This document shows, piece after piece, positions 5,292 through 50,011 of a DNA stretch of 50,011 nucleotides. The translations under genes were made by a program, and so were the position numbers. The stretch's first letter is position 1; each line of letters begins with the position of its first letter. Origin of the DNA: a virus; the IMG/VR virus record IMGVR_UViG_3300020205_001469, positions 1 to 50,011 of that record; one strand, written 5' to 3'. Below the pieces are notes generated by a model, which saw only the letters and a program-made list of their open reading frames with translations, was not told the DNA's origin and made no database searches.

Positions 5292-5318
5292 AATAGTTTT
5301 ATCTCAACATGTATTCGG

Positions 5319-5326
5319 TATTTATG
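5319..5326 (-). promoter_or_regulatory. T4-type late promoter motif CATAAATA
   Basis: On the minus strand it reads CATAAATA (7 of 8 to T4 TATAAATA), 27 nt before the ATG at 5291 in a 111-bp gap. A 6-bp inverted repeat ATGGTA-ATAA-TACCAT sits just upstream (about 5330-5345). Confidence 0.55.
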
Positions 5327-5402
5327 TGAATGGTATTATTACCATTTTGACAAAATACAGATTAAAGACAGCTAGAATCGTTGCAAAACCACCGATTTTC
5401 GC

Positions 5403-28683: not shown

Positions 28684-29945
28684 AATTCCTCATATTTGAT
28701 TAGCCATGGAAACACTTGTCGCCAGTTTGTATTTCTGCGTCTATCTAACTCAGTTAGATGTGTAATCAATTGTACTATCTTTTCTGTATTTTCGCAAGTA
28801 CTTTGTAATTGAGACCAAATACCATTGAGATAATTAAATGCCGTAATTTCCTGTGGATTAGTTTGTTGCATTAGAGATAATGCCAATTCAAAATCAGTCC
28901 GCCAAACTTCTCCACCAAAAATTTCAGGATTATGATACGAGGGGTTAAACACTGTTTGAAAATAATGATGAATTGACCTAACTGTTCTCCATTCATTTAT
29001 CTTTTTTATAAGATCAGGAAAGGTACGAATAGTCAGCGGAGTTAATGTACTATTAATGTTAAGATATACCCATTTTTCATCAAGCAATGTTTGCATATTT
29101 TTTTCAATAGTATCTAATTTAATTCCTGATCTAGCATATTCCTGTTCATCTCCCCAACAATCCAAACTTACAGTAATGTCAAATCGCTTAATACATCGTT
29201 GAATTATCATTTGTTTCACCTGTTGCAAAAATAACTGAAATTTGGCAGGTGCAAGCATTAGGTTGGTTACTAGATTTAATTCTAATTCTCTGTTGGGATG
29301 AGTTTTAAAGAAATCCACACATCTATAAAATTCTTTCTGATATAAAGGTTCACCACCCAATATATGTAATCTTCGTAATTCATTTGAGTTATTTTCAAGC
29401 CACGTAAACAACTTTTCAATATATTGTTGATTTAAATTACGATCAATTGTTTTGATAGGTATAGTTACGCCATTTTTATTAAAATTACCAAATTTGTTAT
29501 TCTCACGTTCAATTTGAGAACTATTACTAGCATTACAATAAGTGCAGGATAAATTGCATGTATTATTAATAAAAACTTCAAGTATTTTTGGAGTTACAAT
29601 CACTGCATTGGGAGTTACTTCCAATTCTTTGGGAGATAAATTTGGTATTGTTAAATGGTGCTGTCTGTCGCTATGTCCACCACTTTTTTCAATTTTTTCG
29701 CAGTATCTACATCCCTCATCATCATGCATATACTCCAATGGTTGTGGCCATTCTCCACGTAACATACTTTCCCGTTGTCGTATCTTCTCTTCTGTGTTAT
29801 GAAATTTGTCAAAATTATCAATTGGGATAGGATGTCTACCCACACGATGACAAGATGCTGTAGTACCATCATTAAGAAATACAGTACTCCAGGTCCATTT
29901 AAGTTGACATGCAGTATCGGTTTTTATTGGGAAGTATTTGTTCAC
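28665..29945 (-). CDS. Radical SAM protein 2 with N-terminal Cys cluster
   Basis: CNLSCTYCNAS at residues 130-140 is the radical SAM CxxxCxxC motif (C130, C134, C137), and LHILGGEPLYQKEF is the GGEP motif. A second Cys group lies N-terminal to it: C32, C79 and C82 (GCRYCEK), resembling the auxiliary-cluster or twitch ligands but placed at the N-terminus. It starts with GTG in a GTGA overlap with radical SAM 1. Such enzymes modify peptides or make cofactors; no substrate is evident. The end overlaps uvsY by 19 bases, so the gene is locked into the recombination operon. Confidence 0.85.
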   Translation of the reverse strand: MNKYFPIKTDTACQLKWTWSTVFLNDGTTASCHRVGRHPIPIDNFDKFHNTEEKIRQRESMLRGEWPQPLEYMHDDEGCRYCEKIEKSGGHSDRQHHLTIPNLSPKELEVTPNAVIVTPKILEVFINNTCNLSCTYCNASNSSQIERENNKFGNFNKNGVTIPIKTIDRNLNQQYIEKLFTWLENNSNELRRLHILGGEPLYQKEFYRCVDFFKTHPNRELELNLVTNLMLAPAKFQLFLQQVKQMIIQRCIKRFDITVSLDCWGDEQEYARSGIKLDTIEKNMQTLLDEKWVYLNINSTLTPLTIRTFPDLIKKINEWRTVRSIHHYFQTVFNPSYHNPEIFGGEVWRTDFELALSLMQQTNPQEITAFNYLNGIWSQLQSTCENTEKIVQLITHLTELDRRRNTNWRQVFPWLIKYEELCGITK

Positions 29946-31138
29946 TTCGTTGCCCAGTTAATTAGCGATTGAGGAAACATAGTTAGTTCTAAAGAACGTC
30001 GTTGAGCAAATGTTGTTAAATAATTCTTAAAATTTAATCTTTGTTTTACAGATGGGATATTTGGCATAGCAGTAGTTATCATACTTTGTACTGGTGATGG
30101 AAATTTATCCAATAAGTTAAGTATTCTTTCTTTAGATTCATCATCCAATACATGGATTGATAAAAACTCCGGATCGGTACACGGTGAATATACAACGGGA
30201 GTATCGCTAGCCCAATTAATAAAGTCAGGAAGCCCGCTTAATGTAAGATTGCTTATGGTAGCATAAAATGAATATGTTACTTGTTGCTCTGTTAATACTG
30301 CAATATTACGCTGTAATCTGTCCCAGGTGTTTCCATATCTTACAAATTCATAAAGTTTATCTGTACTCTCTGCACTAATACATACATTAACTTGGCGTGG
30401 TAATAAAGACAATTCTCTCGCAAACCGGGTAGTGTCAACTCCTAGCCCTGACCAAATATTAACTTTAATATGTGATGGGATCGCTCTTACTAGATTTCTC
30501 AGTCCCAAGTAAAGAAAAGGTTCTCCACCAGTTATAGTTATTTCTTCCAAATTAGAACTAGCCGCAAGTCTATTGATCTCAGCAAATAGTAATTGAGTAT
30601 TGTCTGAATTGCTAATATCTTTCTGACTAAGTTTTAACAACACTCGATCAGTATTATTTAAATCAAATCGATCATCTTGGGTATCCACTCCCACATAAGA
30701 TCCGTGAGTTAGAATATCTTGCGTCCAAGCACTGCTATATTGTTTGCAACAATATACACAAGTCATATTACAATCATTACCAATGATAATGTGCAATATA
30801 CGAGGCGATGCATTAATGTCAGTGTGTGTACGTAGTTGGCTTTCTGAACTTAGCCTACGACTTGTCAATCCTTGTTGTTCGGCATTCCAGCATGTAGCTG
30901 AGCAACTATCCACTTTGACATCTGACAACATTAACTTACGCTCATGTTGCAGTTCTGGTGTATTAAATAGTTTGCCTGGATTCTCACGCAACCATGATAA
31001 ATTAATTTTAGCTGGAGTTGCCGCACAACAACTTAGAGTTTGAATTTTACTAATATCAACAGTCAACCACCAAAATTTCTGACTACAGTAAAAGTTGGTG
31101 GGAGACTGTATATTATTCGTCTTCTTCGTCGTCTGCAT
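29942..31138 (-). CDS. Radical SAM protein 1 with N-terminal Cys cluster
   Basis: CNMTCVYCCKQ (C123, C127, C130) is the [4Fe-4S] motif, and EEITITGGEPFLYLGLRNL is the GGEP segment. The N-terminal part holds C37, C38, C79 and C83 (SCSATCW), the same layout as radical SAM 2, so they are probably paralogues. I use ATG 31138, which overlaps the acidic protein gene by 26 bases and follows GAGG; the frame runs on to 31219 inside that gene. The C-terminal half (FAQRRSLELTMFPQSLINW) has no further Cys group. Substrate unknown. Confidence 0.83.
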   Translation of the reverse strand: MQTTKKTNNIQSPTNFYCSQKFWWLTVDISKIQTLSCCAATPAKINLSWLRENPGKLFNTPELQHERKLMLSDVKVDSCSATCWNAEQQGLTSRRLSSESQLRTHTDINASPRILHIIIGNDCNMTCVYCCKQYSSAWTQDILTHGSYVGVDTQDDRFDLNNTDRVLLKLSQKDISNSDNTQLLFAEINRLAASSNLEEITITGGEPFLYLGLRNLVRAIPSHIKVNIWSGLGVDTTRFARELSLLPRQVNVCISAESTDKLYEFVRYGNTWDRLQRNIAVLTEQQVTYSFYATISNLTLSGLPDFINWASDTPVVYSPCTDPEFLSIHVLDDESKERILNLLDKFPSPVQSMITTAMPNIPSVKQRLNFKNYLTTFAQRRSLELTMFPQSLINWATK

Positions 31139-31337
31139 CCTCGTCCTCAGGAGCATATTCCCGTAACGATCGTTTAAGTGCTGGATCACTCCCACCAAAT
31201 TCTTGTAATTCTGAATCACCCAGCATATCTACCAATACACTAATTAAACTATCGGCAGCTTCTTGACGATCTTTTTGTGGTACGTGTTGAATTAAGATTG
31301 CGTATGTCTCGCTTAATACTTCTACATCTATACTCAT
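31113..31337 (-). CDS. Small acidic protein, 74 aa, between uvsX and radical SAM genes
   Basis: An N-terminal helical domain (VEVLSETYAILIQHVPQKDR, then EAADSLISVLVDMLGDSELQ) is followed by an acidic tail (EYAPEDEDADDEEDE). No family recognised, although short genes just after uvsX are common in T4-like marine phages. It is coupled to uvsX by ATGA and overlaps radical SAM 1 by 26 bases. It might be a substrate or partner of either neighbour; neither is shown. Confidence 0.7.
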   Translation of the reverse strand: MSIDVEVLSETYAILIQHVPQKDRQEAADSLISVLVDMLGDSELQEFGGSDPALKRSLREYAPEDEDADDEEDE

Positions 31338-34485: not shown

Positions 34486-36243
34486 TTAAGCCGCAGGTGG
34501 TGCTACTGGAGCAGGCGGTGTTACTGGAGCAGGTGGTGCTATTGGTGCCGGAGTAGCAGGTTCTGGTGATTTAATTTGAGGATATTTTTTCAATATTAGA
34601 TCAATTTTACTAACATAAGTTTTTCCAGCATCAGAAGTTTTAAGTTGGTTCAATAAATTGGCCATATTTGCCAATTCATCATCGTCTGCTTTCATACTTT
34701 GTGGTTTGGCGGCAAGTTGCAACAGTCTGTTTATAATTAATGGTCTTGCATCAAAGTCTGGTTGTGTATCTGCTTTGGATGCCAGCGCATCAAATAACTC
34801 ATCATCACCAAATAAGTCACCCAATGCATTGGTAGCATTGTCAGAATCTGGACCTAGTTCCAATGGTGAAGCCATTAATTTAATAAATTTGTCTACTTGT
34901 TTTTCACTGAGTGGTAACTCCCAGGTACCTTCGTCTAATTGCGATTCAGCCACACCTTGTTCAACTATGCTATGATTTTTTTTTACGATGTCTTTGATTT
35001 CTTTAACATAACTACGAACTAATTTGCCGGCCATCTCGCGATTTGTTTTATTGGCAGTGTCCCAGTTTTCCATAACATGACGGGCAAACTTGGCTATCAC
35101 TTTATCAGATTCAGATAATTTAGTACTGATGTTTTCCAACATCTTGATCATAAATGCATTCTTGTCAGTAAACTCCAACAATCCCAACATATCACGATCA
35201 GATTCATTTAATCCAAATCTGGCGGTACCGGTTTCAAATTGTGCAATCTGGTTGGCTACTTGTGCGGCTTCACGGATTGTGGCAGCATATGCTTTGGCAA
35301 TGTGTGGGATCGCTTGTTCCATTCTTTGATCAAAATACTTTTGAATAAAGCGTTCTTTGAGATCTTCAGTCATCTCATCTAACTGTTCGGCAGATGAGCT
35401 TTCTTCAAAACTTTCCATATATTTGGTATAGCCACGTTGTCCTTTGAGACGATGTAGTGTTTCACGTAATGTGTTGTAATACTCTACTGCTGATTCCACC
35501 ATCTGTGTCGTAGTAGCATCTTCAAATTGTCTACGTTTGCTGGACATCACAAAGTAACGCAAATCTTTTAATTCGTTAATGGATTCATTTACATGTTTGG
35601 AAAATGCATCATTGTGAGCACCACCATTACTGACATGGCGAGCAATAACTCTGCCAGCCAATAGATTGTTGCTTTCTAATTTAAAACGTTCACCTTCATT
35701 GTTTTCAATGAAAATCTTTTCAATATTTCTGCTACGAGCACCATGGATGTTCTCATCAACTTGTGCGCTGTGTTTGACAATTAGTTTAACCGGACCCATT
35801 TTCTGATAACTGCTTTTAGTTGACCCGTATAGCTTGCTTTCAGCAATATCTTTAACTGTGGAATCTTTGGAATACGTTTTAGCAAATGTCTTAATATCGC
35901 GCAATGCCAGACTGGATTTGCCAATGTCTCTAGCGTCAAAAGTTAGTAAGTTTCTCATAGCAAAATTCCTTAATCCTTTTAAAAATGCATACCAATCCTT
36001 GGAATCAAGGGCTGGATTATTTGATATATTTTTACTATAAAATACTTTCAACCCCTTCTTGTCAGCAACAGTAATAGTAATGTTACCAAAACTTTCTTTG
36101 CGTTGTTTATAGTCAAAGTTAAAAAACCTGGCTTCTGCAGGGTCTACTGTATCGTTAGCTTCTTCATCGCCCATATTGATATCTTCAGAACGAGCTCTGA
36201 GCTTTTCAAAAAGGTCTGTACTGATTTGTTCTATAGGTTTCAT
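34486..36243 (-). CDS. Probable head-associated protein, 585 aa, with QGVAE site
   Basis: Mostly helical. It begins MKPIEQISTDLFE, an N-terminal segment that ends in LxE at residue 13 and could be a capsid-targeting sequence. Residues 50-240 form a mixed domain (LKVFYSKNISNNPALDSKDW), 250-420 are helical, and HSIVEQGVAESQLDEGTWEL at 424-443 carries a QGVAE tag (429-433) like those in 40782-42938. It ends with a Pro/Ala tail (APIAPPAPVTPP). An exact TATAAATA motif lies 6 nt before the ATG. Located between terminase and gp32. Head-cargo role inferred. Confidence 0.65.
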   Translation of the reverse strand: MKPIEQISTDLFEKLRARSEDINMGDEEANDTVDPAEARFFNFDYKQRKESFGNITITVADKKGLKVFYSKNISNNPALDSKDWYAFLKGLRNFAMRNLLTFDARDIGKSSLALRDIKTFAKTYSKDSTVKDIAESKLYGSTKSSYQKMGPVKLIVKHSAQVDENIHGARSRNIEKIFIENNEGERFKLESNNLLAGRVIARHVSNGGAHNDAFSKHVNESINELKDLRYFVMSSKRRQFEDATTTQMVESAVEYYNTLRETLHRLKGQRGYTKYMESFEESSSAEQLDEMTEDLKERFIQKYFDQRMEQAIPHIAKAYAATIREAAQVANQIAQFETGTARFGLNESDRDMLGLLEFTDKNAFMIKMLENISTKLSESDKVIAKFARHVMENWDTANKTNREMAGKLVRSYVKEIKDIVKKNHSIVEQGVAESQLDEGTWELPLSEKQVDKFIKLMASPLELGPDSDNATNALGDLFGDDELFDALASKADTQPDFDARPLIINRLLQLAAKPQSMKADDDELANMANLLNQLKTSDAGKTYVSKIDLILKKYPQIKSPEPATPAPIAPPAPVTPPAPVAPPAA

Positions 36244-36261: not shown

Positions 36262-37827
36262 TTACATTATTATAAAGGGCATTGGCATACGTATGGGTTC
36301 GTCGCTGCCATTACGCATTTTATCATCCAGATTAGCGTCATAACTCTGTAAAAATGCTATCATTCTAACTGCTAATACAGTGGCCATTACTAAATCATCT
36401 GTTTGCCCAGTTAGTGCTTTGTATGTAGTGCCACTGGAAATGAAGTTTTTAAGCTCTGATATTAGTGGTTTACTTTTGATCACTAGTTTGTCTGTTTCTA
36501 CAAAATTCTTAAGTTTAGCACACGCACTTAGTTTGCTTGAGTGTGTGGTTGAAAACCCCTTGCGGTGTTTTCGTACATTACCCAGTCGATGCGGCTCGCT
36601 TAACATTGTGCCTGGTATGTTTTCCTCGCCATACTCACGTAAACTAACCAATCCTGCTTCACCAATTGTGTTATTTTCTAAACTGTAATATATTTGCTCG
36701 TTGGTTTTAACTGTTTCTGCAATAAGAGTTACAATCTCTGCCAAAATTTTAATTTGCTGTTCTACTGGTGTTTTATTATGACACCATTCTGCTACTTGTT
36801 CACAACTGGGTAATTCAAATACTTCTATTGCGGCAGGATCACCACCAGTACCAATGCTGGGATCTAATGCCACTATATAAGTGGATTTGGGATCTATCTC
36901 CTTATACCAGCGTACCTGTCCTTGCTTGTTAATAGGACTAACACCTTCCATACGTGCTAGTTTTAGTGGATCGATCAGTGTTTCATCATCGCGAATAAAT
37001 TCACAATCCATTTCACGACGGAAACGTTCTTCACCCAATTGTCCTCGTTGCTCACTTGCCCAGTTTTCGTCACGATCTGGATGTTCATTCCAGTATGCTC
37101 TGAATGATTTAAATCCGTTTCGTCCAACATCAGTTTCATTACCGAACTCATCCAAGCACTGATTGGCACCTTGCCAAAGTTGTGCAAATTGATCTTCGTC
37201 ACTGTTTGGAGTACTGGTTATAATGGCTTTACCACCAGTTGCCAATGTGGGGCTAATACTGGTCCAAAACTCACGGGCGATAGTTGGTCGCACAAAACTA
37301 AACTCATCGCAATACAGCAATGTTATGGACATACCACGACCAGTATTTTCTGTGGTTGCTTGACTAACTATACGGCTACCATTTTCAAACTCTATACTAC
37401 CTTTGTTGTAACTGGTAACACCAGCACGTATATGATCTGGACAATCTTCGTATGCATAACGTACACGTTGCATAATTTCCTGTGCGCCACTATACTTGTG
37501 TGCCGCCACTAATATAGTTGCGTCAGGTACAAACATGGCATACCATAACAAGTATCCAGCGGCTGTTGCTGTTTTGCCCATTTGCCGAGGTAACATATTA
37601 ATGTTAAATCGATAGTTGTGATAAGTTGCAATTAGTCTGACTTGGAATCCGTAAGGCTGATACAACATCTTGCCTTGCATGGGATGTTGTATATAGAAGA
37701 AGTGAGTTAAGAAATAAAGTGGGCCAGTTACTGGGTCAGCACACTGGGCAAACTCGCGCATTTGTTGTTCGGTATAGTTCTCTTGCCGATTTGGTCGTTT
37801 TATTAACGAGCCGTCTTGTGATGACAT
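36262..37827 (-). CDS. 17: Terminase large subunit (gp17), ATPase and nuclease
   Basis: I start at ATG 37827 (MSSQDGSLIKRPNRQENYTE), in a TAATG junction with the preceding gene; the frame runs on to 37869 but no start there is better. Walker A RQMGKT at residues 81-86, Walker B LLYCDEFSF at 170-178, the TSTPNSDED coupling motif at 205-212, and nuclease residues in IVALDPSIGTGGD (D322), SLENNTIGEAG and TDDLVMAT identify gp17. It packages DNA into the prohead. At 521 aa it is slightly shorter than T4 gp17 (610). The small subunit gp16 is not recognised nearby. Confidence 0.95.
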   Translation of the reverse strand: MSSQDGSLIKRPNRQENYTEQQMREFAQCADPVTGPLYFLTHFFYIQHPMQGKMLYQPYGFQVRLIATYHNYRFNINMLPRQMGKTATAAGYLLWYAMFVPDATILVAAHKYSGAQEIMQRVRYAYEDCPDHIRAGVTSYNKGSIEFENGSRIVSQATTENTGRGMSITLLYCDEFSFVRPTIAREFWTSISPTLATGGKAIITSTPNSDEDQFAQLWQGANQCLDEFGNETDVGRNGFKSFRAYWNEHPDRDENWASEQRGQLGEERFRREMDCEFIRDDETLIDPLKLARMEGVSPINKQGQVRWYKEIDPKSTYIVALDPSIGTGGDPAAIEVFELPSCEQVAEWCHNKTPVEQQIKILAEIVTLIAETVKTNEQIYYSLENNTIGEAGLVSLREYGEENIPGTMLSEPHRLGNVRKHRKGFSTTHSSKLSACAKLKNFVETDKLVIKSKPLISELKNFISSGTTYKALTGQTDDLVMATVLAVRMIAFLQSYDANLDDKMRNGSDEPIRMPMPFIIM

Positions 37828-38039
37828 TATATGGGTTTCTCGCCGGTCAGGTATGGTTTGGCAAACCAAAGTTTAAACCATTCTGGAGTACCTGGTCTTA
37901 TATCGTGTTTACGTTGTAGGTCGGCTTTTTCTTGTCCAGTGATGCTGACATTGCTACCCATGCTGTATGGTTGCCAATTTGGTTTATTAGTTATTCCAGC
38001 TAGGACTTTGAGTTCCTGTAATGGATCATATTCATTCAT
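37827..38039 (-). CDS. Small protein, 70 aa, upstream of and coupled to terminase
   Basis: Starts MNEYDPLQELKVLAGITNKP and ends WFKLWFAKPYLTGEKPI. GTTAAATA-CTTCT precedes the ATG at 38039, which makes this start better than a TTG at 38096. The gene ends in TAATG with the terminase start. Too short for a T4-like small terminase subunit (about 160 aa), so an assembly or regulatory partner is possible. Function unknown. Confidence 0.68.
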   Translation of the reverse strand: MNEYDPLQELKVLAGITNKPNWQPYSMGSNVSITGQEKADLQRKHDIRPGTPEWFKLWFAKPYLTGEKPI

Positions 38040-38085: not shown

Positions 38086-38598
38086 TCATCTGGCAAGGAG
38101 TTTTACCTTAAATTCTTTCTGATATGCCTTGGCATATTCAGGGTCTGTGGCAATTGCAGCCTCACCTGGCGGCCAGCGTTTACCAATTATATCTTCGGCA
38201 TACTGGTAGGCCCATTTAGGATCTTTGGCAATTGCGGCTTCGCCAGGTGGCCAGGGTTTTTTAATTACAAAGCGGGCATACAGGTAGGCCGATACAGGAT
38301 CATTGGCAATTGCAGCCTCACCTGGTGGCCAGGGTTTACCAATTACATCCTGGGCATACCGGTAGGCATAGTAAGGATCATTGGCAATTGCAGCCTCACC
38401 TGGTGGCCAGGGTTTACCAATTACATCCTGGGCATACAGGTAGGCATATTCAGTATCTTTCGCCCATAGATGTTCTAGTTCTTGTTTCTGTGCTTTAGTT
38501 TTAGCCATATCCCAAGCAATCGATGGTATTTTCGCAGAGGCATCAGCATACCCCATTAACTGCTGTGGTTGGGCATGGAATCGGTATAGATTAAGCAT
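38086..38598 (-). CDS. PWPPGE-repeat protein, 170 aa
   Basis: After a 45-residue lead (MLNLYRFHAQPQQLMGYADA) come four 26-residue repeats of the form PWPPGEAAIA-NDPxYAYxYAQDVIGK. Related repeats occur in several phage proteins and are likely short helical hairpins; function is not known to me. The start overlaps 38591-39325 by 8 bases. It lies inside the head-cargo block but lacks an obvious targeting sequence. Confidence 0.75.
   Translation of the reverse strand: MLNLYRFHAQPQQLMGYADASAKIPSIAWDMAKTKAQKQELEHLWAKDTEYAYLYAQDVIGKPWPPGEAAIANDPYYAYRYAQDVIGKPWPPGEAAIANDPVSAYLYARFVIKKPWPPGEAAIAKDPKWAYQYAEDIIGKRWPPGEAAIATDPEYAKAYQKEFKVKLLAR
38149..38460 (-). repeat. 78-bp tandem coding repeat
   Basis: Copies of ggcaattgcagcctcacctgg start at 38149, 38227 (with changes), 38305 and 38383, a constant 78-bp spacing (26 codons). 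The two rightmost units are nearly identical, suggesting recent duplication. Confidence 0.88.
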
Positions 38599-39325
38599 CT
38601 AGGTATTTCCCGTAATATTTTTTAATTAAGAAATTCAAAAACTGTGTATATTCTGGAATCTTACTTAATGCCGCAATATCCTGTTTACCAATTTCCAGAT
38701 CGCGTTCGTTCATAAACGATTTGTCTTCCATATGAAGCTGGAATTTGCGAGCCTTACCGCCCAAATTAGCCATGATAATATACAAGTCACCTTTGGATGC
38801 ATAGTTTTGAAATTGATTATTCTCTTTACCCGCAGTACACCATTTTGTACCAGCACCATACAGACACGATGCTTCTTCTGTTCTAGGGACGATGACTTTG
38901 AAGTTGGGAGTATCAATGATTCGATCTGCGTTGGCTTTAACATCACGAGTTTGCTGTTTAGCACTTGGCGCGGCTGGTTGTTGTTCCTCGGTATCGATTA
39001 TATCATATAGCTGATTTAAATCTTTAATCTGGTTTAAATCTTTAATCTGCAACGTATTTCGTATCTTAATAAACTTAGCAATAGAATCGCGCAAGCGAGC
39101 CAAATCATCGAGTTTGAATTGCTGACGCACATACATGTTGGCGATGAATTGTAGATTCTTACCTTGTGGGTCTGGATCTGCTTGCTTTAACTGATCAACA
39201 ATGGCAACCGAATCCATTGGTTGACCCAGATCCTGTTGAGCCGCCGCTTCGATCTTGGACTTCATCTGTGTTGCGATGAACTCCGCTCGATCTTCAAGTA
39301 AATATATAAATTCTTTTGCTCTCAT
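38591..39325 (-). CDS. Probable head-cargo protein with GTKWCT motif, 244 aa
   Basis: Begins MRAKEFIYLLEDRAEFIATQ. The first eleven residues end in LLE and share EFI with T4 internal-protein signals, so this is a candidate capsid-targeting sequence. The C-terminal half has ASCLYGAGTKWCTAGKENNQ and YASKGDLYIIMANLGGK, a Cys/Trp-rich motif that I have seen in uncharacterised phage proteins; I do not know its activity. A Pro/Ala/Gln linker at about residues 115-125 separates the halves. Ribosome site AAGGAAG. Confidence 0.65.
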   Translation of the reverse strand: MRAKEFIYLLEDRAEFIATQMKSKIEAAAQQDLGQPMDSVAIVDQLKQADPDPQGKNLQFIANMYVRQQFKLDDLARLRDSIAKFIKIRNTLQIKDLNQIKDLNQLYDIIDTEEQQPAAPSAKQQTRDVKANADRIIDTPNFKVIVPRTEEASCLYGAGTKWCTAGKENNQFQNYASKGDLYIIMANLGGKARKFQLHMEDKSFMNERDLEIGKQDIAALSKIPEYTQFLNFLIKKYYGKYLDA

Positions 39326-39337
39326 ACCAAAACTTCC

Positions 39338-40780
39338 TTATTTAATTTGTTTAGCTTTGGCTAATAAAGCAATTAACTGTGGTCCCAATGTTGGATCTTG
39401 GAGTAACTTGGCAATGTCATCTAGTGTTGGTAAAAATGCTTGTGCTGTTGCTGGAGTAGATATTCCGTTACTAGCCGCAGTCAATGCTTTGCCCAACGCA
39501 GCCGGATTAGCGCCAACGACAGAAGCCAATTTGCCACTTTGGGTTTTCTGAATTTGTGCCTTTTTAACTTCGATTGGGTCTGGCACCGCACCTGGTACTG
39601 GAGCACCAGGGACTCCTGGAGCCGCTTCACCAATGTTGGGATCAATCCCTCTGGAACCTCTTCCACCTTTTTTACGTATAGCGGCAAGTTCATCTAATCC
39701 ATGTTTAATTTGTTCAACATTCATTGCTAGTTCACCAAATTGGCGAGCAATACTTTCCCAACCAATGGCACTACCATTTTCAGCTCGTTTTGCTAACTCT
39801 TTAAATTGTGCGGCGGCTCTGGCCATACGGTATTGTAGTTTAGCAGGATTGGCACCTTGATGATTGTGGATCATGGGGTTCATCGGTTCTGCTGGATCCA
39901 TTTCAATCGGCGCTTCTGTCACACCTTGAGATCTATTAGTACCTATAGTAACCGCTGGCGCTCTCATTCGCATTTTATCGTTCGATGCTTGCACCACACT
40001 ATCAAAAGTTAAATTAAATACTCTATTGCCATCTTTATCTATTGTTTCATCTCCCAAAACATATCTGCCATTGGCAATAAGATTTGCAGTCATTGCCGCT
40101 TTGGAACTTAACGGAACACCTGGAAGTAGAGTAGTACCTTCACCACCTTTATAAGTTCTAATAGTACTAGGTTTAAACCCCTCGTCTCGCATTATTTCAG
40201 GATATTCCATTATCTCAGCACCCGCCAACACTAACTGTGGGCCTGGGTTAATTTTGGCATAGAAAGTATCTGTGCTTAGTTCTAATATATCCTTTGCAAA
40301 CTCAACATTAAAATCCAATGTAGCGTATCCGCTAACTTTAGTAGCTACATCAATTTCTTTATCAATTTCTAATTTTAAATTATTAACTGCTTCTTCTGGA
40401 TTCTGACCTTTGGCTTTAAATGTTGCTTGCAATGTTCTTGGATTTTCAGCAACCGCAATAAAATATAAATTTTTAAACTTCTGTTTGCTTACATAAACAT
40501 CATATCTTTTGTGTGAACTTAAATTTTTATATTGATTATTAGCTTTATAACCTGACAATTCATTTAATAAGCCCTTTACCACATCAGGCTCCTGGAAGTT
40601 TTCAAACTCTTTTAGATAATCCTGTCCGGATGGTGCAGAGGTTACACTCTCACCACCAACCATTTTACTACGTGACGCTTTAGCTGAGTCTTTTCCAGCC
40701 CAATATCCCGGAAACTTCTTTGGTGCTTTTCTGGGTTTAACTGCGGCAACTTCTGACAGGTGTTTTCTAAATGATTTCAT
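39338..40780 (-). CDS. Probable head-cargo protein with CTS-like start and QGVTE site, 480 aa
   Basis: The N-terminus MKSFRKHLSE-V matches the T4 capsid-targeting pattern in length (10 residues) and end (LxE). A mixed alpha/beta domain occupies residues 60-280 (KRYDVYVSKQKFKNLYFIAV, FKAKGQNPEEAVNNLK), then SQGVTEAPIEMDP at 284-296 holds a QGVTE site, followed by helical segments and a Pro-rich linker (PGVPGAPVPGAVPDP) and a final helix ending KAKQIK. No enzyme family recognised. It directly follows the 40782-42938 polyprotein-like gene. Confidence 0.65.
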   Translation of the reverse strand: MKSFRKHLSEVAAVKPRKAPKKFPGYWAGKDSAKASRSKMVGGESVTSAPSGQDYLKEFENFQEPDVVKGLLNELSGYKANNQYKNLSSHKRYDVYVSKQKFKNLYFIAVAENPRTLQATFKAKGQNPEEAVNNLKLEIDKEIDVATKVSGYATLDFNVEFAKDILELSTDTFYAKINPGPQLVLAGAEIMEYPEIMRDEGFKPSTIRTYKGGEGTTLLPGVPLSSKAAMTANLIANGRYVLGDETIDKDGNRVFNLTFDSVVQASNDKMRMRAPAVTIGTNRSQGVTEAPIEMDPAEPMNPMIHNHQGANPAKLQYRMARAAAQFKELAKRAENGSAIGWESIARQFGELAMNVEQIKHGLDELAAIRKKGGRGSRGIDPNIGEAAPGVPGAPVPGAVPDPIEVKKAQIQKTQSGKLASVVGANPAALGKALTAASNGISTPATAQAFLPTLDDIAKLLQDPTLGPQLIALLAKAKQIK

Positions 40781-40781
40781 T

Positions 40782-42938
40782 TTATTTTCTTCTACGTGTT
40801 ATAGTACCCGGACCGCCATTGGCAAATCCGTTGCCAGCACCCATACTTGTTGCTACACTACCTGTACCCATGCCACCAGCATCTTCTTTAGCTACATTTT
40901 TAGCAAATTGTGCCATATGGCGTAGATGTGGATCTGCGCTATGTATAGCTTGGGCTATTCTGGATTTGGGAATTGTTTCATCTTGTGGTACATGTAATGC
41001 CTTGTGTAGATTGCCTTTGGTCTTGGGATTCACTGCCTTTTGTATCCATTTTTCACCTTCTGTTACACCTTGCTCTTCGGATTCCATATAGTCCCAAACA
41101 TTAACTAGCATAGATTTAGCCACAGCAATCTTTTCTTGACACCATTCAGGCAAATTATCACCAGTGTCAATCAAGTCATCTAATCCGTCCACGGCACGGC
41201 GCAGTGTGCTAAGATTGTTGTCTGCCATTCCTGCTTCGTCATCATATTCGGGATTGTATTCCTCCGCCACACCTTTCTTATTCAATGCATCAATCGCGGT
41301 TTTTTTATGTTCAGGCGATGCGTCGCTCATTGCGATATCTCTAACTATCTTGGCAGTGCCAACCATGTTATCCGTGGGTTCAAATTTGCCCAAACCTTTT
41401 TCATATTCTTTACGCTTGGTTGCAACTTGTTTGGCATGAGCCGAGCGTGGTTCTTTACTACCACCTGCCCAGCCATAAGTTGTACGAAATTTCTTTACTT
41501 CTTGTACTTTTTTCTTACGATAGGTATCGTGAAATGCTTCTGACGAACTAACAGTAAATCCCGCATGTGATGCTACATATTTTTTAGCACCTTCACGTGT
41601 TTTGAATTTTCTTGCCTCTGTACCGTTTTTATGTGCTATCCAAGCACCAAGTGGATCAGCTTTGGTTTCCGCCACATCCTGCTCATTACCGTACTGCCTT
41701 AATAGCATCTTACCACTAGCAACTTCAAATCTACCCTTAACGGCAGGACCTAATCGCTTAGTAGCCCGTCGTTCTATTTTAGATAAATTTAATTCAGCAT
41801 CGTTTTCATCAGTATATTCACCATACAATACCACCGCATTATCCCAAGCCCAAACATAGTATTTGTTAGGATCAATAGTGTATGCACTACCATGAATAGT
41901 CTCAATGCGGGCTTCCGCCACACCTTGTAACTTTTTTAATTCTAACTCAAGTTCTTGAACTCGAAGTTGTCGTTCTTGTTCTTTAGCAATAGCAATAAGA
42001 TTCTTAAGACTACGGATACGATCTGCTTTTACTGTATCTTTGGTCATTGGACTTGCATTATCAAATCCGCCTTCCGCCACACCTTGCTCTTTAACATAGT
42101 TAGCACGAACATTCCCTGACTGATAGTTCTTTAGATTTTTGGCTGCTACTTTTTCTTTCGATTCTTGATCTTTTTTGTATGTTTCTCTTTCAGCTTTTTG
42201 TCTTGCCAATTCTTTTGCTGATGTTCTAAGATCGTCAAAGCCTTCCGCCACACCTTGCGTAATACGATGATTTCTGCCGCCAAAAATTTTGCGGATAGTA
42301 TCAATTGCCTCTTGCTCGCTATTAGCGCGAACTGAGTATGTCTTTGTGTATAATGGGACATCTTTGTTGGAACCATGATGCTCAGCTGTGACGTGGAACA
42401 TCTGTTCTACTTCTTCCGCCATACCCGGCTGACCTTTGATTGCTTGTAACAATGCACGAGCAACTACACGATCCTTTTCCTGTTCATCATCAGGTAACTG
42501 TGCATACTCAATGTTCATCAACTTGGCTCGTTGTTGTAGTTTTGCTTCTAATTTGCCAGCGGCTTTTAGTTTTTCTGTATCGTCAAATTGATCAGGATTT
42601 TGTACAAATGCTCGAGCAGTGACATTCCAACCTTTGTGTATGGCGTCGCTAATTTGTTCTATATCTGTAACACCTTTATCAATCATTTGTTTAGCAAACG
42701 CGGCAGATTTTAGGTTAGCTTGCCATCCAAATGTATTTCCGGGTGTACTACGACCATAATGATATGCATTATCCAATGCTTCGTCACTGATTGTGGCCAA
42801 CTCTGGGACTGACATTTGTTTAACTGGCTTTGCCATCTCATCTGGGCTAACAGGATTGTTTCTTAAAAAATCTCTAGTTGGATTTCTAGTTTTAGATGCT
42901 TCTGCTAGTTCTGAGTTATGAAAATCGGTAAACTTCAT
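40782..42938 (-). CDS. Polyprotein-like head-cargo protein with repeated VAE/VTE sites, 718 aa
   Basis: N-terminus MKFTDFHNSELAE-A could be a capsid-targeting sequence cut at residue 13. Later sites: GMAE 172-175, QGVAE 228-232, QGVAE 285-289, QGVAE 338-342, QDVAE 420-424, GVAE 556-559, QGVTE 623-627. They separate unlike segments, including a charged coil (ELARQKAERETYKKDQES), an aromatic beta segment (KYYVWAWDNAVVLYGEYTD), a DNLPEWCQEKIAVAKSMLVN helix and a basic end. The sites resemble prohead-protease sites (LxE or IxE in T4). Each module is 50-140 residues. I infer a head polyprotein. Confidence 0.72.
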   Translation of the reverse strand: MKFTDFHNSELAEASKTRNPTRDFLRNNPVSPDEMAKPVKQMSVPELATISDEALDNAYHYGRSTPGNTFGWQANLKSAAFAKQMIDKGVTDIEQISDAIHKGWNVTARAFVQNPDQFDDTEKLKAAGKLEAKLQQRAKLMNIEYAQLPDDEQEKDRVVARALLQAIKGQPGMAEEVEQMFHVTAEHHGSNKDVPLYTKTYSVRANSEQEAIDTIRKIFGGRNHRITQGVAEGFDDLRTSAKELARQKAERETYKKDQESKEKVAAKNLKNYQSGNVRANYVKEQGVAEGGFDNASPMTKDTVKADRIRSLKNLIAIAKEQERQLRVQELELELKKLQGVAEARIETIHGSAYTIDPNKYYVWAWDNAVVLYGEYTDENDAELNLSKIERRATKRLGPAVKGRFEVASGKMLLRQYGNEQDVAETKADPLGAWIAHKNGTEARKFKTREGAKKYVASHAGFTVSSSEAFHDTYRKKKVQEVKKFRTTYGWAGGSKEPRSAHAKQVATKRKEYEKGLGKFEPTDNMVGTAKIVRDIAMSDASPEHKKTAIDALNKKGVAEEYNPEYDDEAGMADNNLSTLRRAVDGLDDLIDTGDNLPEWCQEKIAVAKSMLVNVWDYMESEEQGVTEGEKWIQKAVNPKTKGNLHKALHVPQDETIPKSRIAQAIHSADPHLRHMAQFAKNVAKEDAGGMGTGSVATSMGAGNGFANGGPGTITRRRK

Positions 42939-43229: not shown

Positions 43230-45086
43230 TTATTTTTTAGCTACAGGTTTGACTGGTTTGACTGGTAATGCTGGTGCTGCCGGCTCATCAGCAATACCCA
43301 TGCCATCACGTGTGGCTTGATATAATGTTTTGCCACCCACTTTGATATTTGGTCCTACTCCTGTGGCTTTCTGAAATCCAGCCTCATCTCCAGCAGTGGC
43401 TAATTTACGTGCTAGTGATCCACTGATACCAGCTAACCCACCTGCATCAGGATCACGGTCACCACTACTAACGAATGTTAGATGAACGTGTTCTCGTCCA
43501 GTAGGACCACGAGCATTGTCTGTGGTGCGAACTGATCCACTATTCCATCCAGTTAATAACTTTTCAATACTGCCAGCACTATTACCCAAACGGTCACTGC
43601 CACCAATAAAAGCTATGTTACGGAAGCCTTTATCATACAACCAATTTGCGGCATAGATAGGACCTTGCACTGGATCAGACACGATACGGGCCGCATACTT
43701 GGGATATATTGCTTTGATAAAGGCTGCTTTGGTTGCTGGATCTAATGGATCATCTGGTGCTTTGTTACTGTTACTTAAGAATATATAACTGTTCTTTCCA
43801 CCTGTTGCTACTGTTTTGGCCATAACTAAATTATGACCTAGTGTGGGTGGATTCATACGTCCAAAACAAAATGCAGCCAATGGCATCTTCTGCTTGGCTG
43901 CTACCTCGTCGTCAGACACACGATGTTTAGCAAAGTTTGCTTTACTAAATCCCAGTCGGTCAATTAGTTTTAGTTTATCTCGACCAGCACCAAATACATA
44001 TCCTTCATGTGCAGTTGCACCATCTGTTGTGGCAATAATTTCACTATTTTGTTGTTGTGAGTCTATCTGTTGTTTAATATGTAGTTTTAAATCTGTTACC
44101 GCGGCCCACATACTCCACAATCCCAATAATCCTGGAGCACCACCATCTTCTTGATATAACCAACCATCATTGTTTGCACCCAAAAACTTTGCTGTTACTA
44201 CTTTATTATCAGCGAATCGTTCACGTAGGAAATTTAAAAATCGTGGTACAATATCCGCACTTACATCATTCTCTTCCAACATACGTGTAATAAACGGGCT
44301 CATTGCTGTTATAATGCTCTTGCCCTTCATAGCAGTTACATCTGCCATAAATTTAGTTACTGCTTTTTTATGCTGTCTAATTACTGTTTCAGCTTCACCC
44401 AACACTCGTTTATCAACAGCAACTTTGGGCTTCTCGGTCATTTCTCCAACTAGGAAAGTGATACCAGCTTTTTCTTTAAGCCCCCGTAATCCCACCAGCG
44501 GAACATCGCCCTGACCTAACCCGTTGATAAAGGTATGTACTGCTATACCACCAGCACTCTTGGTAATTTTGTCACCAAGTGGACTATCAATTTTAACTTT
44601 GTATTCTACGGTATTGGGTTTAAAGACATAGAATCCATCTTTGGTAGCGGGAGTATATGCCCACATTAAGTCACCCATCCAATACTGATCCTTGACCATG
44701 GGTACTATTTTTTCTAGCAGTGGGCGCATGATACCTTCTTTGTCCCATAGATCATTGCGATTAGATCCACGTTGCTCGTCATAGGCAGCAATGCTCATAA
44801 ACTCCATCTTGCCCTTGGAGACTTTGTCGTACATATGTTTGTCTACAAATACTATTTGTCCTGCGGCATCGCGACCAAACACCACTGCTGGAAATCCATC
44901 CCATTTAACGGTTACTGTATCGGTATTTTTACCCAGACCTTTTAACTCGGCAACTGCACGTTCAGCACCAGCGGCACCATCGTCAATAATCAAATCTTCA
45001 ACGTGAGTAATACCTTCAGTTAGTACCTTGGGGGCGGCATGTAGTGGGAATTTATCCGACTGGTTAAAAATCTCAAATAATCTCAT
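43230..45086 (-). CDS. ATP-dependent ligase-like / NMNAT-like nucleotidyltransferase fusion, 618 aa
   Basis: Residues 60-380 carry covalent nucleotidyltransferase motifs: KWDG (motif I, K61), WMGDLMWAY (motif III-like, 136-144), AHEGYVFG (IV, 359-366) and KLKLID (V, 371-376), as in DNA or RNA ligases. Residues 400-570 form an NMNAT/cytidylyltransferase domain: FGRMNPPTLGHN (408-419; TxGH variant of HxGH), FIGGSDRLG and ISGSLAR (554-560). A Pro/Lys tail follows. The N-terminal 24 residues end in LTE-G, a possible capsid-targeting cleavage site. ATGA overlap with 45083-45997. RNA repair or NAD-linked roles are guesses. Confidence 0.75.
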   Translation of the reverse strand: MRLFEIFNQSDKFPLHAAPKVLTEGITHVEDLIIDDGAAGAERAVAELKGLGKNTDTVTVKWDGFPAVVFGRDAAGQIVFVDKHMYDKVSKGKMEFMSIAAYDEQRGSNRNDLWDKEGIMRPLLEKIVPMVKDQYWMGDLMWAYTPATKDGFYVFKPNTVEYKVKIDSPLGDKITKSAGGIAVHTFINGLGQGDVPLVGLRGLKEKAGITFLVGEMTEKPKVAVDKRVLGEAETVIRQHKKAVTKFMADVTAMKGKSIITAMSPFITRMLEENDVSADIVPRFLNFLRERFADNKVVTAKFLGANNDGWLYQEDGGAPGLLGLWSMWAAVTDLKLHIKQQIDSQQQNSEIIATTDGATAHEGYVFGAGRDKLKLIDRLGFSKANFAKHRVSDDEVAAKQKMPLAAFCFGRMNPPTLGHNLVMAKTVATGGKNSYIFLSNSNKAPDDPLDPATKAAFIKAIYPKYAARIVSDPVQGPIYAANWLYDKGFRNIAFIGGSDRLGNSAGSIEKLLTGWNSGSVRTTDNARGPTGREHVHLTFVSSGDRDPDAGGLAGISGSLARKLATAGDEAGFQKATGVGPNIKVGGKTLYQATRDGMGIADEPAAPALPVKPVKPVAKK

Positions 45087-45997
45087 TTTACTTTGTCCAA
45101 TATACTTCTAAACCAGTCTGATGTTCCTTCTTGAACTGGGACTGGATAAAACTGTTTTACTGCATCCCATTTTTTAGGATATTTTTGCAAGGCATTTTTG
45201 ATACCGGTTAAACTAGATATATCACGAGCTTTGGCTTCTGGCCCAATTAATATTTTTGCTATTTGATCTTTATCAATAGCCACAACCTTTCCAGTTGTTC
45301 TATCTACTAGTCCATTGTCAGGACTAAATTGTAAACTACCCTTGACCTCACCAGTTTTGGGATCAGTAAATTGTCGTGGACTACTTACTTTGGTCAGTGC
45401 CGCATATAGGTCGTTCCACAAATCTCCACCACGCATATTTTGATCCAAACTAAAATCGTGTGTATGTAGCATCCAAGCTGACCGTGGCCGTACGATTAAA
45501 TCTACCGAGTAGTGTTTGCCACCAGCAGTATATTCCAATGTCAATGTGCCAGGATCCGTAGGTAAGCCATTTTGCGTCATAAAAGCAGCCAATGCTGCCT
45601 TGCTGGCTTTCATTTGTAACCCAGCTTTTTTGGCTGGATCTGCCATGGCGTTGTCTATTGCTTTGGGGCCTAGTGGTTTGGCTGATGCGGCATTCCACTG
45701 TGCTATATCTGCTGGGAATTTTTTAACTAACTCTTGCGGATCAATCATAATATCCACGTCGCCAGAATCTTGTCTTAGTGTTCCAGAATACGGATGTTCT
45801 GGATCAAAACTGCCTGCACCCCCTGATGTCCAACCAGCACTAATGCCGGCTTTTTTAAGGATGGGATTTATCTTGGCTTTTGCTGTAAGAAAAGCATCTT
45901 TTGTAATACGTGATACATCCACGCCTGCGGCGGCTAATCTCTTGCCGGCTTCTGCTATATTTGTTGCAATTTTTGTGTGTTTAGCAATAGAATTCAC
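45083..45997 (-). CDS. Nucleotidyltransferase-fold-like protein, 304 aa, candidate head cargo
   Basis: The GSFDPEHPYSGTLRQ segment followed by DSGDVDIMIDPQELV (D-x-D at 77-79) resembles the metal-binding core of DNA polymerase beta-type nucleotidyltransferases, although the canonical GS motif is shifted. Then LTLEYTAGGKHYSVDLIVRP supplies the third strand with an Asp. The start is GTG at 45997 with GGGGA upstream; the N-terminus MNSIAKHTKIATNIAE-A could be a targeting sequence ending IAE. It overlaps the ligase-like gene by 4 bases, suggesting a functional pair. Function unproven. Confidence 0.65.
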   Translation of the reverse strand: MNSIAKHTKIATNIAEAGKRLAAAGVDVSRITKDAFLTAKAKINPILKKAGISAGWTSGGAGSFDPEHPYSGTLRQDSGDVDIMIDPQELVKKFPADIAQWNAASAKPLGPKAIDNAMADPAKKAGLQMKASKAALAAFMTQNGLPTDPGTLTLEYTAGGKHYSVDLIVRPRSAWMLHTHDFSLDQNMRGGDLWNDLYAALTKVSSPRQFTDPKTGEVKGSLQFSPDNGLVDRTTGKVVAIDKDQIAKILIGPEAKARDISSLTGIKNALQKYPKKWDAVKQFYPVPVQEGTSDWFRSILDKVK

Positions 45998-47393: not shown

Positions 47394-48188
47394 TTACTCC
47401 TCGGTGTATTTACTTGCATAAACTACCTGTTGAATTTTTCCTATCTTACCTGGCCAAGTCAAATGCAACCAACTGACTTCTGCTTCTTCTCTTAGGTAAA
47501 ATCTAATACCATTAAAGTAGTAAGTATCAGTAACAATGTTTGATAACGATTGCCATGCCAGCCTGGTAGATTTGACTCGATCTGCAAAGGTACCGTTAAG
47601 TTTTTCTGCAAGCCCAACTGATAGTTTAGCATCTACATTCTTAAGATATGTTAATAACCGTTTGGTATCTGCTATTTGATATCTGCCTTCTCGTATAGTA
47701 ACCAAAAACCGATAAGGGGTTTCTCGCTTGAGTATAATTAAGTCTTTGGCTAAAATCCGTAAACTTTGCTCGCTATCAGGCACATATATAGTGGCAATCT
47801 TTCGCCGCACTAATGGTGATACTGATTTTGTAAATTGTTCTGCATCTTGTTCCGTAACAAAATAGCAATCTAAATTGTCGCGCTCTACCCGCATTTTGAC
47901 TGGTGGTGATTGTGCTGTTAGGTAGGTGGTCAAGTCAGTTAATAATTGTTCATTCTCCCAAGTGAGCGGAGGATGCGTATTGTTATAGGCACCGCGCCAA
48001 TGCCGCCTCTTTTTAGCTTCAGCAAGTACAATATCGCTAGATTGTCCTTTGCGACACCCATTCACTATGTCCTGTACTTCTGGCGATTTGATAGTAATCT
48101 TGTAGTAATACTGGCCATAAAACTTTTTACTAACTGGAACAATAGTTGCTGTTGGATTAACTGTACTCCATATATTGTTATTGAGCAT
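47394..48188 (-). CDS. Conserved phage protein of unknown function, 264 aa
   Basis: Mixed fold: YGQYYYKITIKSPEVQDIVN, KMRVERDNLDCYFVTEQDAE, RFLVTIREGRYQIADTKRLL and a C-terminal WLHLTWPGKIGKIQQVVY. I start at ATG 48188 (AAAGGTGCTTG upstream, inside clpA), giving an 11-bp overlap with the ClpA-type gene. No motifs of a known enzyme. It ends 5 bases before the 55-aa gene, so the right-end genes appear to be one operon. Confidence 0.68.
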   Translation of the reverse strand: MLNNNIWSTVNPTATIVPVSKKFYGQYYYKITIKSPEVQDIVNGCRKGQSSDIVLAEAKKRRHWRGAYNNTHPPLTWENEQLLTDLTTYLTAQSPPVKMRVERDNLDCYFVTEQDAEQFTKSVSPLVRRKIATIYVPDSEQSLRILAKDLIILKRETPYRFLVTIREGRYQIADTKRLLTYLKNVDAKLSVGLAEKLNGTFADRVKSTRLAWQSLSNIVTDTYYFNGIRFYLREEAEVSWLHLTWPGKIGKIQQVVYASKYTEE

Positions 48189-50011
48189 CAAGCACCTTTA
48201 CTTTACTGGACTCTATTTCAAATGCAAACTTAGAGTCAATATAATCAATAGTGATTATACTATTGGGTTTAACTACCTCAAATAACAACTTTCTGCTTAG
48301 TGGTGTCTTAATTTCGTTGTCAATGACCCTGGCCAACGGCCTTGCGCCCATCTTTTTATCGTATCCCTTTGTTATCAATGCATCGATACAACTCTCACTG
48401 CAACGAACTTTAAGTTGCTTGCTACTAAGTAGTTCATTTAACTCTTGCATAAACTTGTTAACTACTTTCTTAATACTGAGAGTATCCAATGACTTAAATT
48501 TAACAATTGCATCCAATCTATTTCTAAATTCAGGTTTAAAGAAATCCTTAACTTCTTTATCATCAGCATCTGTACGATCTAATACTGTTGTAAATCCCAT
48601 ATTGCTACGTTCGTTGGCCTCGGCACCCAGGTTACTGGTCATAATAACAATAGTGTTACGGCAGTCAGCTTTCTTTCCGTTACTACCAGTAGCCACGCCA
48701 TCATCCATTACCTGCAACAATACGTTATAAACATCTGGATGCGCTTTTTCAATTTCATCAAACAATATAATTGAGTGAGGATGTTTTTCCACTTCACTAA
48801 TAAGCAAGCCACCAGCCATACTACCATCTTCATAGCCCACGTAGCCAGGTGGAGCACCAATTAGTTTAGCAACACTGTGCCGTTCCTGGTATTCACTCAT
48901 GTCAAATCGCAACAACTTCATGCTTAACTGTTGACTTAACAATTTAGCAAGTTCTGTTTTACCAACACCAGTTGGGCCTGTGAATAAGAAATTACCAATG
49001 GGCTTATTAAGCGATTTAAGGCCAGCTTTGGCCACAAATATTTTTGCCAATACCGTATCAACAGCATGGTCTTGCCCATATAACTTCTCTTTAATAGTAT
49101 CCTCTAGCGTTACAGATACTTGATCACGTTCTCCCATTAATTGCTGTAATGGTATTTTAGTTTGCTTGCTTACTATGTCTAAAATATGTGATTTAGTAAT
49201 TAGAAATTTGCCTGCTTTAATCTTGGCCTTGGCGCATGCCATATCAATTAAGTCAATAGCCTTGTCAGGTAGTTTCCTATCACGAATATATCTGTCGCTG
49301 TACTCAACTGCAATATCAATAGCAGTTTCTGATATCTTGCCGCCATGAAATTCTTCGTAACTGGATTTTAGTCCACGTAAAATTTTCTTGGTAGTATCTA
49401 CTGTGGGCTCATCAATACTCAACCTATAGAATCGACGCATTAACGCACGATCTTTTTCAAAACTCTGAGTATATTCTTCCCATGTGGTAGATGCAACTAC
49501 TTTGATTTTACCTTTAGCCAGGGATGGTTTTAACATGTTAGCCAAGTCCACACTACTTTGACTGCCTGCACCGGCGCCTTTCATTTGATGTGCTTCATCG
49601 ATAAACAAGATACAGTTCTTTTTAGCTTCCATTGCGGTAAGTATGTCTTTGAGTTTTTCTTCAAACTCACCGCGATACTTACTACCAGCCAACAAACTAC
49701 CAACATCTAAATTGTATACTATAAAGTCTTTTAAGTAATCCGGCACAAATCCCTTGAGTATGTTGTATGCCAATCCTTCCACAATAGCCGTTTTGCCTAC
49801 TCCTGGATCACCAACCAACAATACATTACTCTTATTCTTACGTGCTAGTACTTGAATAATTTCGGTTAGTTCATCATCACGACTAATAACTGGATCAATC
49901 TTTCCTTCTTCACATAACTTGTTGACATTGGTGCAGTATTCATCCAAGATACTATCTGCTCGTGAATCCGACACATCCTTGGTGGCTTTGCCGTAGTTTT
50001 TATTAAAGAAC
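48178..50011 (-). CDS. clpA: ClpA-type AAA+ unfoldase, N-terminus outside window
   Basis: The visible 610 residues contain two AAA+ modules: GDPGVGKT with ILFIDEAH (first) and GPTGVGKT with IILFDEIEKAHPDVYNVLLQ (second), plus GSLLAGSKYRGEFEEKLK and RPLARVIDNEIKTPLSRKLL. In E. coli ClpA an IGL loop contacts ClpP; here the corresponding segment has MGF (SNMGFTTV), close to the [LIV]G[FL] rule, so ClpP binding is plausible. The frame stays open to the right edge (no stop before 50011), so the N-domain that binds ClpS is not visible. With ClpS at 15652-15951 it could redirect host ClpP. No ClpP gene is seen. Confidence 0.92.
   Translation of the reverse strand, partial: FFNKNYGKATKDVSDSRADSILDEYCTNVNKLCEEGKIDPVISRDDELTEIIQVLARKNKSNVLLVGDPGVGKTAIVEGLAYNILKGFVPDYLKDFIVYNLDVGSLLAGSKYRGEFEEKLKDILTAMEAKKNCILFIDEAHQMKGAGAGSQSSVDLANMLKPSLAKGKIKVVASTTWEEYTQSFEKDRALMRRFYRLSIDEPTVDTTKKILRGLKSSYEEFHGGKISETAIDIAVEYSDRYIRDRKLPDKAIDLIDMACAKAKIKAGKFLITKSHILDIVSKQTKIPLQQLMGERDQVSVTLEDTIKEKLYGQDHAVDTVLAKIFVAKAGLKSLNKPIGNFLFTGPTGVGKTELAKLLSQQLSMKLLRFDMSEYQERHSVAKLIGAPPGYVGYEDGSMAGGLLISEVEKHPHSIILFDEIEKAHPDVYNVLLQVMDDGVATGSNGKKADCRNTIVIMTSNLGAEANERSNMGFTTVLDRTDADDKEVKDFFKPEFRNRLDAIVKFKSLDTLSIKKVVNKFMQELNELLSSKQLKVRCSESCIDALITKGYDKKMGARPLARVIDNEIKTPLSRKLLFEVVKPNSIITIDYIDSKFAFEIESSKVKVLDAQ

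Follow-up and report, generated by a model that had tools for sequence, protein, structure and literature searches.

The 50,011-base fragment of a T4-type phage analysed here (IMG/VR virus record IMGVR_UViG_3300020205_001469, "the window") encodes on its minus strand two proteins that we give about an even chance of forming a nucleic-acid end-repair module, probably for RNA, which is packaged in the phage head and matured there by proteolysis. The upstream gene (45083..45997, GTG start) encodes NT, a 304-residue nucleotidyltransferase of the polymerase-beta fold. The downstream gene (43230..45086, ATG start) encodes a 618-residue fusion of a DUF6267 domain with an HxGH nucleotidylyltransferase domain, as delineated from the list of open reading frames (ORFs), Pfam and PHROG matches and an AlphaFold (AF2) model; the start of the second gene and the stop of the first overlap by four bases (45083..45086), which couples the two. 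In the scheme that we infer for this phage, from late expression, packaging and injection to the activity of each domain, the RNA substrate and the role of the HxGH domain, both proteins would be synthesized late alongside the head proteins and brought into the prohead by N-terminal leaders. A gp21-type head protease would free them at [ILV]xE/[GAS] sites (a slash marks the predicted point of cleavage), after which they would be packaged alongside the DNA and delivered by injection. Inside the host, NT would replace nucleotides lost from a broken end, K61 of the DUF6267 domain would accept a nucleotide and that domain would then seal the end, and the HxGH domain would make or recycle a dinucleotide, perhaps NAD+. 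The target would most likely be tRNA or other RNA cleaved by host defence.

The three-domain architecture itself is virtually certain. A preliminary description of this DNA had reported both ORFs, their overlap and motifs, and the coupling of a ligase-like/NMNAT fusion to a nucleotidyltransferase gene; the coordinates proved correct, the motifs are invariant in relatives, and the adjacency is either kept in relatives or turned into fusion. Among 63 nonredundant loci, NT lies immediately before the ligase-NMNAT protein in 14, and in nine NT and the ligase-like domain share a single ORF (one of these nine also with a second nucleotidyltransferase-like gene, NT2, and one cut by the contig end). 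Four-base overlaps, or a short gap, recur at the junction between NT and the ligase-like gene. Several relatives encode all three domains within one protein of ~880 residues, which argues that the coupling is real. The ligase-NMNAT protein is seen alone at 18 of the 63 loci, mostly in a leaderless clade, and NT2 occurs in the same run of genes at 23; a search for it in the window was negative. NT2 (e.g., 5000-6019(+) of locus L011, and ~20 other loci) is a leader-bearing protein of ~338 residues whose motifs, GRPTGSSA...YGDIDLQMI and QIDF, suggest that it is likely a second polymerase-beta-type nucleotidyltransferase of the same operon; at one locus (L017) it is fused to NT. Comparison with near relatives gives nonsynonymous (dN) and synonymous (dS) divergences of 0.010-0.013 and 0.18-0.19 for the ligase-NMNAT protein and of 0.006-0.007 and 0.12-0.14 for NT, i.e., dN/dS ratios of 0.05-0.07. 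The fusion is matched by 469 phage records, and the ligase-like domain alone by 337 at a loose limit; GTDB representative genomes yielded no relative of the fusion at the sensitivity used.

The preliminary description had called NT polymerase-beta-like, a label that both its fold and its three Asp residues bear out. The protein carries the signature GGAGSF...DSGDVDIMID (the latter block at residues 77-86), with D80, D82 and D166 as the catalytic residues. All of 35 relatives share G79, D80, D82, D86 and D166, and the superfamily's hG[GS], DxD, third Asp and palm fold can all be recognized, G62, D80, D82 and D166 being invariant and S63 nearly so. An AF2 model built from the alignment of these relatives has a mean predicted local distance difference test score (pLDDT) of 90, with low values at the N-terminus. 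In searches of the PDB it matches DNA polymerase lambda by Foldseek (E 2e-4, TM-score ~0.4) and DNA polymerase beta by VIA (Z 9.3, root-mean-square deviation 4.0 A over 187 residues). No Pfam or PHROG family matches the window NT, and a PDB profile search with it gave no credible match. The fold and the metal-binding Asp residues of the model are thus well supported, unlike the choice of substrate, which a match at 11-16% identity and a Foldseek TM-score of ~0.4 leaves unfixed. Leaderless NT homologues, ~30% identical, occur at loci L143-L168 without a ligase-like gene within the fetched flanks, and a further nucleotidyltransferase-like ORF (GSNAAYGYGPHSDLDLHLVVD, 10460-11170) lies near the one at L146.

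The PDB matches listed for NT belong without exception to the family X DNA polymerases, and its SGDxD context is polymerase beta-like. Both observations would suit a DNA gap-filling and nick-sealing kit, in which a family-X-like polymerase and the ligase-like domain are injected to mend incoming phage DNA, the entering genome being the obvious substrate of an injected repair set. We regard this alternative as unlikely, given the low identity and TM-score of those matches, the failure to see a helix-hairpin-helix motif in NT by eye and the presence of a separate, canonical DNA ligase in 5 of 11 relatives' records. Rnl1 is found in 3 of the 11, and since some relatives also carry one or the other enzyme, the module is not simply the replication ligase.

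The ligase-like DUF6267 domain (residues 25-395, 43902..45014) was delimited by Pfam, motif conservation and the order of strands in the AF2 model. Residues 26-387 match DUF6267 (PF19782) with 116 bits against a curated cut-off of 27 (E 2.5e-33). Motif I, K61-W-D-G (44895..44906), contains the presumed nucleotidyl-lysine, and motifs IV and V, E361-GYVFG and K371-LKLID, follow at 43959..44006. The order KxDG ... EGYV ... K is that of ligases and capping enzymes, and in DUF6267 the KxDG, the EGx[VI] and the motif V lysine occur in this order and are invariant. K61, W62, D63, G64, E361, G362, V364 and K373 are unchanged in 19 full-length relatives; across 64 relatives drawn from several phage lineages, K61, D63, G64, G138-D139, E361, G362, V364 and K373 are 100% conserved. 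The model of the 618-residue protein (pLDDT 90.7) places strands at motifs I (59-61, 67-72, 78-82), III (134-143), IV (362-365) and V (372-375), with motif IV set apart by a helical region at ~226-344. The DUF6267 protein of phage Syn9 is only 320 residues long. From the motif order and the predicted strand pattern a ligase core appears likely, and from the sequence we think it quite probable that DUF6267 has the chemistry of the ligase superfamily. A search for DUF6267 in the literature available to us found no report. A divergent DUF6267-like protein (HHalign 99%) is encoded near a replicative helicase in the straboviral Vibrio phage EniLVp02_0206 (L317, 3393-4475).

The third domain (residues 399-600, 43287..43892) had been called NMNAT-like, which its fold confirms. 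It carries PPTLGHN (413-419) and ISGSLAR (554-560); the core GRMNPPTxGH is invariant in the 19 full-length relatives, and the GRMNPPTLGH and ISGSLAR motifs together with a Rossmann-like fold place it in the HxGH group (PF01467), a family matched by 31 of 76 relatives. Residues 399-574 match a PHROG cytidyltransferase (E 7e-24), and the modelled residues 401-600 align with structures of PPAT (Z 13.1) and of NMNAT (Z 12.2), within a range of 11.8-13.1. Relatives match NCBIfam models of NadR, NadD and PPAT (nadR_NMN_Atrans, E 1.7e-6). Its model assigns the domain to the NMNAT/PPAT group of nucleotidylyltransferases, "NMNAT" being a fold-level label and a guess as to substrate; NMN is not established as the substrate because the matches to PPAT, NadD and NadM are of about the same quality. 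Whether the domain supplies NAD+ or another dinucleotide is the weakest link of our interpretation. The same phage has a second NMNAT-like gene (25685-26476(-)), encoding a P-loop kinase with a C-terminal HxGH domain (LGRWQPWHDGH...ISATKIR), and an HxGH protein resembling heptose-1-phosphate adenylyltransferase (18698-19465(-)).

It is conceivable, if improbable, that the NMNAT-like fold is the point of the whole assembly, i.e., that a true NMNAT is delivered by the virion and restores NAD+ depleted by host defence or boosts metabolism, with DUF6267 and the nucleotidyltransferase regulating it or making its substrate. The nadR/NadD matches of relatives, the NMNAT homologues found in virions (PMC9602691, PMC10665884) and the second, kinase-HxGH gene would fit such an NAD+ supply, which nevertheless leaves the coupled nucleotidyltransferases and the invariant KWDG/EGYV/K motifs unexplained and has to contend with the nearly equal fit of the PPAT, NadD and NadM folds. 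Nothing in the analysis favours NAD-capping.

The preliminary description had merely asserted that both proteins have capsid-targeting starts; comparison of leaders among relatives strongly supports it, and of all its remarks this is the best supported. T4 internal proteins carry an N-terminal leader that serves encapsidation (PMC3012670), and the leaders of T4 internal proteins and gp24 are of the same design as those described here (MKTYQEFIAE/A, MKTFKEFTSTTTPVSTITE/A, MAKINELLRE/S), short and ending in hxE/[AGS]. In the window, the putative leader of the ligase-like/HxGH protein covers residues 1-24 (MRLFEIFNQSDKFPLHAAPKVLTE/G, 45015..45086), of which residues 1-23 have pLDDT below 50. That of NT covers residues 1-16 (45950..45997), ending NIAE/A in a stretch of low pLDDT; read from the GTG as VNSIAKHTKIATNIAE/A, it is the least typical of the set. 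Among nonredundant ligase-like proteins that bear a leader or are fused, P3 is I, L or V in 37 of 37 and P1 is Glu in 36 of 37, counts that come from rows related by descent and not from independent cases. The P1 Glu directly precedes the conserved G[IT]xHxED start. All 15 leaderless ligase-like proteins begin MAGI at the same junction, without the Glu. The leaders of NT relatives read MxFxEFFxE/AGK (e.g., MNFKEFFTE/AGK, MRIQELITE/AGK), and leaderless NTs begin MSGxAL (e.g., MSGNALKK) at that same residue. NT-ligase fusions retain the cleavage site between the domains. In the fused family, NT is present in 9 of 9 leader-bearing records and absent from both leaderless ones. Genes for Peptidase_S77 (gp21) and gp23 are found in 7 of 11 relatives' records, and capsid proteins of relatives show junctions of the LVE/S or IAE/S type (by eye).

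In other marine relatives DUF6267 and NMNAT are encoded separately, and these genes also often carry such leaders. Virion mass spectrometry has detected an NMNAT homologue in the cyanomyoviruses S-SCSM1 (PMC9602691), S-CREM2 (PMC10665884) and S-SZBM1 (PMC9146016), whose leaders read MKSFLQFLKE/A, MKNFSSFLTE/A and MRFRQFIIE/A, respectively. The virion NMNAT-like proteins of these phages and S-CBWM1 have a homologous HxGH domain, with a leader in the first three, and differ from the window in being encoded by a separate gene. The leaderless DUF6267 neighbour in S-SZBM1 is absent from the main text and proteome table of that paper (PMC9146016). Two genes after the virion NMNAT homologue of S-CREM2 lies gp156 (L355, 4513-5226), which by eye is nucleotidyltransferase-like (TGGNANYNYTPYSDIDLHLVVD) and is itself in the published virion proteome. 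Judging from the leaders, the proteins of the module are quite probably packaged in the virion.

T4 Alt, an injected modifying enzyme, begins with MELITELF, which the leader resembles, and capping enzymes are among the covalent nucleotidyltransferases. The KWDG domain and the nucleotidyltransferases might instead transfer nucleotides onto host RNA or protein, by capping, NADylation or AMPylation, much as Alt ADP-ribosylates its targets; the window protein matches no capping-enzyme profile and a target is not known, and we consider this role very improbable. That the proteins are head-core components with vestigial enzyme folds is scarcely credible, even though the genes lie near the terminase and T4 Rnl1 is annotated as acting also in tail-fibre attachment, given invariant catalytic residues, a dN/dS of 0.05-0.07 and the KWDG kept in leaderless, presumably unpackaged lineages.

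A second cleavage-like motif appears in this group of phages. In nonredundant ORFs of the related loci QGVAE occurs 21 times, whereas the other permutations of the motif average 0.28; some of the copies are homologous. Several ligase-NMNAT relatives have [GPN]VAE/[GS] directly after the HxGH domain. In the window, a neighbouring leader-bearing protein of 718 residues (40782..42938, minus strand) has six [QK][GD]V[AT]E sites where 0.58 are expected, at positions that vary between near relatives, as in a polyprotein string; by sequence it may be a chain of internal head peptides that the head protease separates. The tie of QGVAE-type motifs to that protease is less certain because P3 is V and not L or I. 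Two more proteins follow on the minus strand, a 480-residue protein (39338..40780) with the leader MKSFRKHLSE/V and one SQGVTE/A site, and a 244-residue protein (38591..39325) with a start that looks leader-like by eye (MRAKEFIYLLE).

Several known systems resemble the module in part. In Kyanoviridae (S-PM2, P-HM1, Syn9, HTVC008M, Melnitz) a DUF6267 gene (T4-GC 71) is followed by a cytidyltransferase gene (T4-GC 190), both profile-homologous to the window domains and adjacent or fused, and annotated no further than "cytidyltransferase". Unlike in the window, the marine records examined have the two as separate genes (S-PM2 probably has a fusion), and the four complete marine records searched have no NT gene. 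The splitting of the S-PM2 DUF6267 over two ORFs is probably a frameshift or sequencing error, since a second S-PM2 record aligns in one piece. In HTVC008M a P-loop kinase (gp129; L170, 6706-7368; Zeta_toxin/AAA_33, polynucleotide-kinase PHROG) is encoded between the DUF6267 and NMNAT genes. The internal proteins IPI-III and Alt of T4 share the MKxFxEFxxE/A-type leader and hxE junction, and relatives have the gp21-type protease gene; their cargo is an inhibitor or an ADP-ribosyltransferase, as opposed to a multi-domain nucleotidyltransferase set whose packaging is predicted. For jumbo phages, the RlaP polymerase-beta-type nucleotidyltransferase and an ATP-grasp RNA ligase have been proposed to restore nucleotides and then seal (PMC7824862). 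That system likewise couples such a nucleotidyltransferase with a ligase, but the window proteins match neither PF10127 nor Rnl1/Rnl2, have a fused HxGH domain and bear leaders. The T4 Rnl1 (gp63)/Pnkp pathway of tRNA repair is similar in its KxDG...EGYV...K order and in the kinase-like gene of HTVC008M, and differs in showing no significant profile similarity and in lacking the helical insert before motif IV and the fused HxGH domain.

Several results weigh against the interpretation that we prefer, a head-packaged end-repair module. The profile searches of each domain that the preliminary description had recommended returned DUF6267 and the PHROG cytidyltransferase, with no ligase family and no match for NT: even at E 10 the window protein matches only DUF6267 and not Rnl1 (PF09511), RNA_ligase (PF09414) or DNA_ligase_A_M (PF01068), and none of these three ranks among the 25 families that 76 relatives match most often. 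RlaP (PF10127) matches neither the window NT nor any of its 35 relatives, the single RlaP match in the record G001 being a gene other than its NT. When the ligase-like domain was compared by HHalign with T4 proteins and with profiles of Rnl1, Rnl2 and DNA ligase, nothing significant emerged (E 0.026-0.039 for Rnl1/Rnl2, the best local match to either one lying on motif IV in register, at E 0.026 for Rnl1). This says little about kinship, because known ligase pairs fail too, Rnl1 and Rnl2 against DNA ligase giving E 0.12 and 0.47 with equally small alignments. Strands fall at motifs I, III, IV and V, as a ligase core would have it, while the Foldseek and VIA match lists for the full fusion are filled by the HxGH domain, with Trl1 (9r3w, probability 0.15) as the only ligase; PDB profile searches gave no credible match for the full fusion or for motifs I-IIIa, and a match to PBP2X looks like chance. 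The ligase reading thus stands on motif order, invariance and strand order, HHalign and Foldseek not being decisive, and with non-significant profiles and a swamped fold search we take its core as likely rather than proven. The virion proteomes come from distant marine phages and concern a separate NMNAT gene, no DUF6267 protein was seen in a virion in the material considered here, and the authors of the proteomes note possible carry-over from the lysate (PMC9602691, PMC10665884, PMC9146016). Injection cannot be essential everywhere, because some lineages have no leader. On balance we think it fairly probable that the module acts on nucleic acid, and, if it does, somewhat favour RNA over DNA, in view of the resemblance to RlaP systems, the kinase gene that separates the homologues in HTVC008M and the separate DNA ligases of 5 of 11 relatives.

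Neighbours of the module include genes for the large terminase (36262-37869), a virion structural protein (34486-36243) and a ClpB-like ATPase (48178-49974, by Pfam and PHROG), as well as UvsX-like and SSB-like genes. Elsewhere in the window, at 28665-31219(-) and 26473-27954(-), there are two adjoining radical-SAM-like genes and a Nol-like carbamoyltransferase.

Hundreds of records of T4-type phages contain DUF6267 together with its HxGH partner, mostly with no function named beyond "cytidyltransferase". More tentatively than for the window itself, we suggest that phages of this group may inject a ready RNA-repair set that comprises the polymerase-beta-type nucleotidyltransferase, DUF6267 as a divergent ligase family not recognized before, and the HxGH nucleotidylyltransferase. 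Its proteins would be made as precursors, either with leaders or in polyproteins, be matured by the head protease and reverse RNA or tRNA cleavage before phage expression begins. If DUF6267 is a head-carried enzyme of the ligase superfamily, a widespread phage gene would gain a testable function, and the infecting virion would already bring in the means of countering host defence by repair. A leader that ends in [ILV]xE/ directly ahead of the domain, and that leaderless lineages have lost cleanly, also provides a sequence criterion by which to look for further injected enzymes in the same group of phages.

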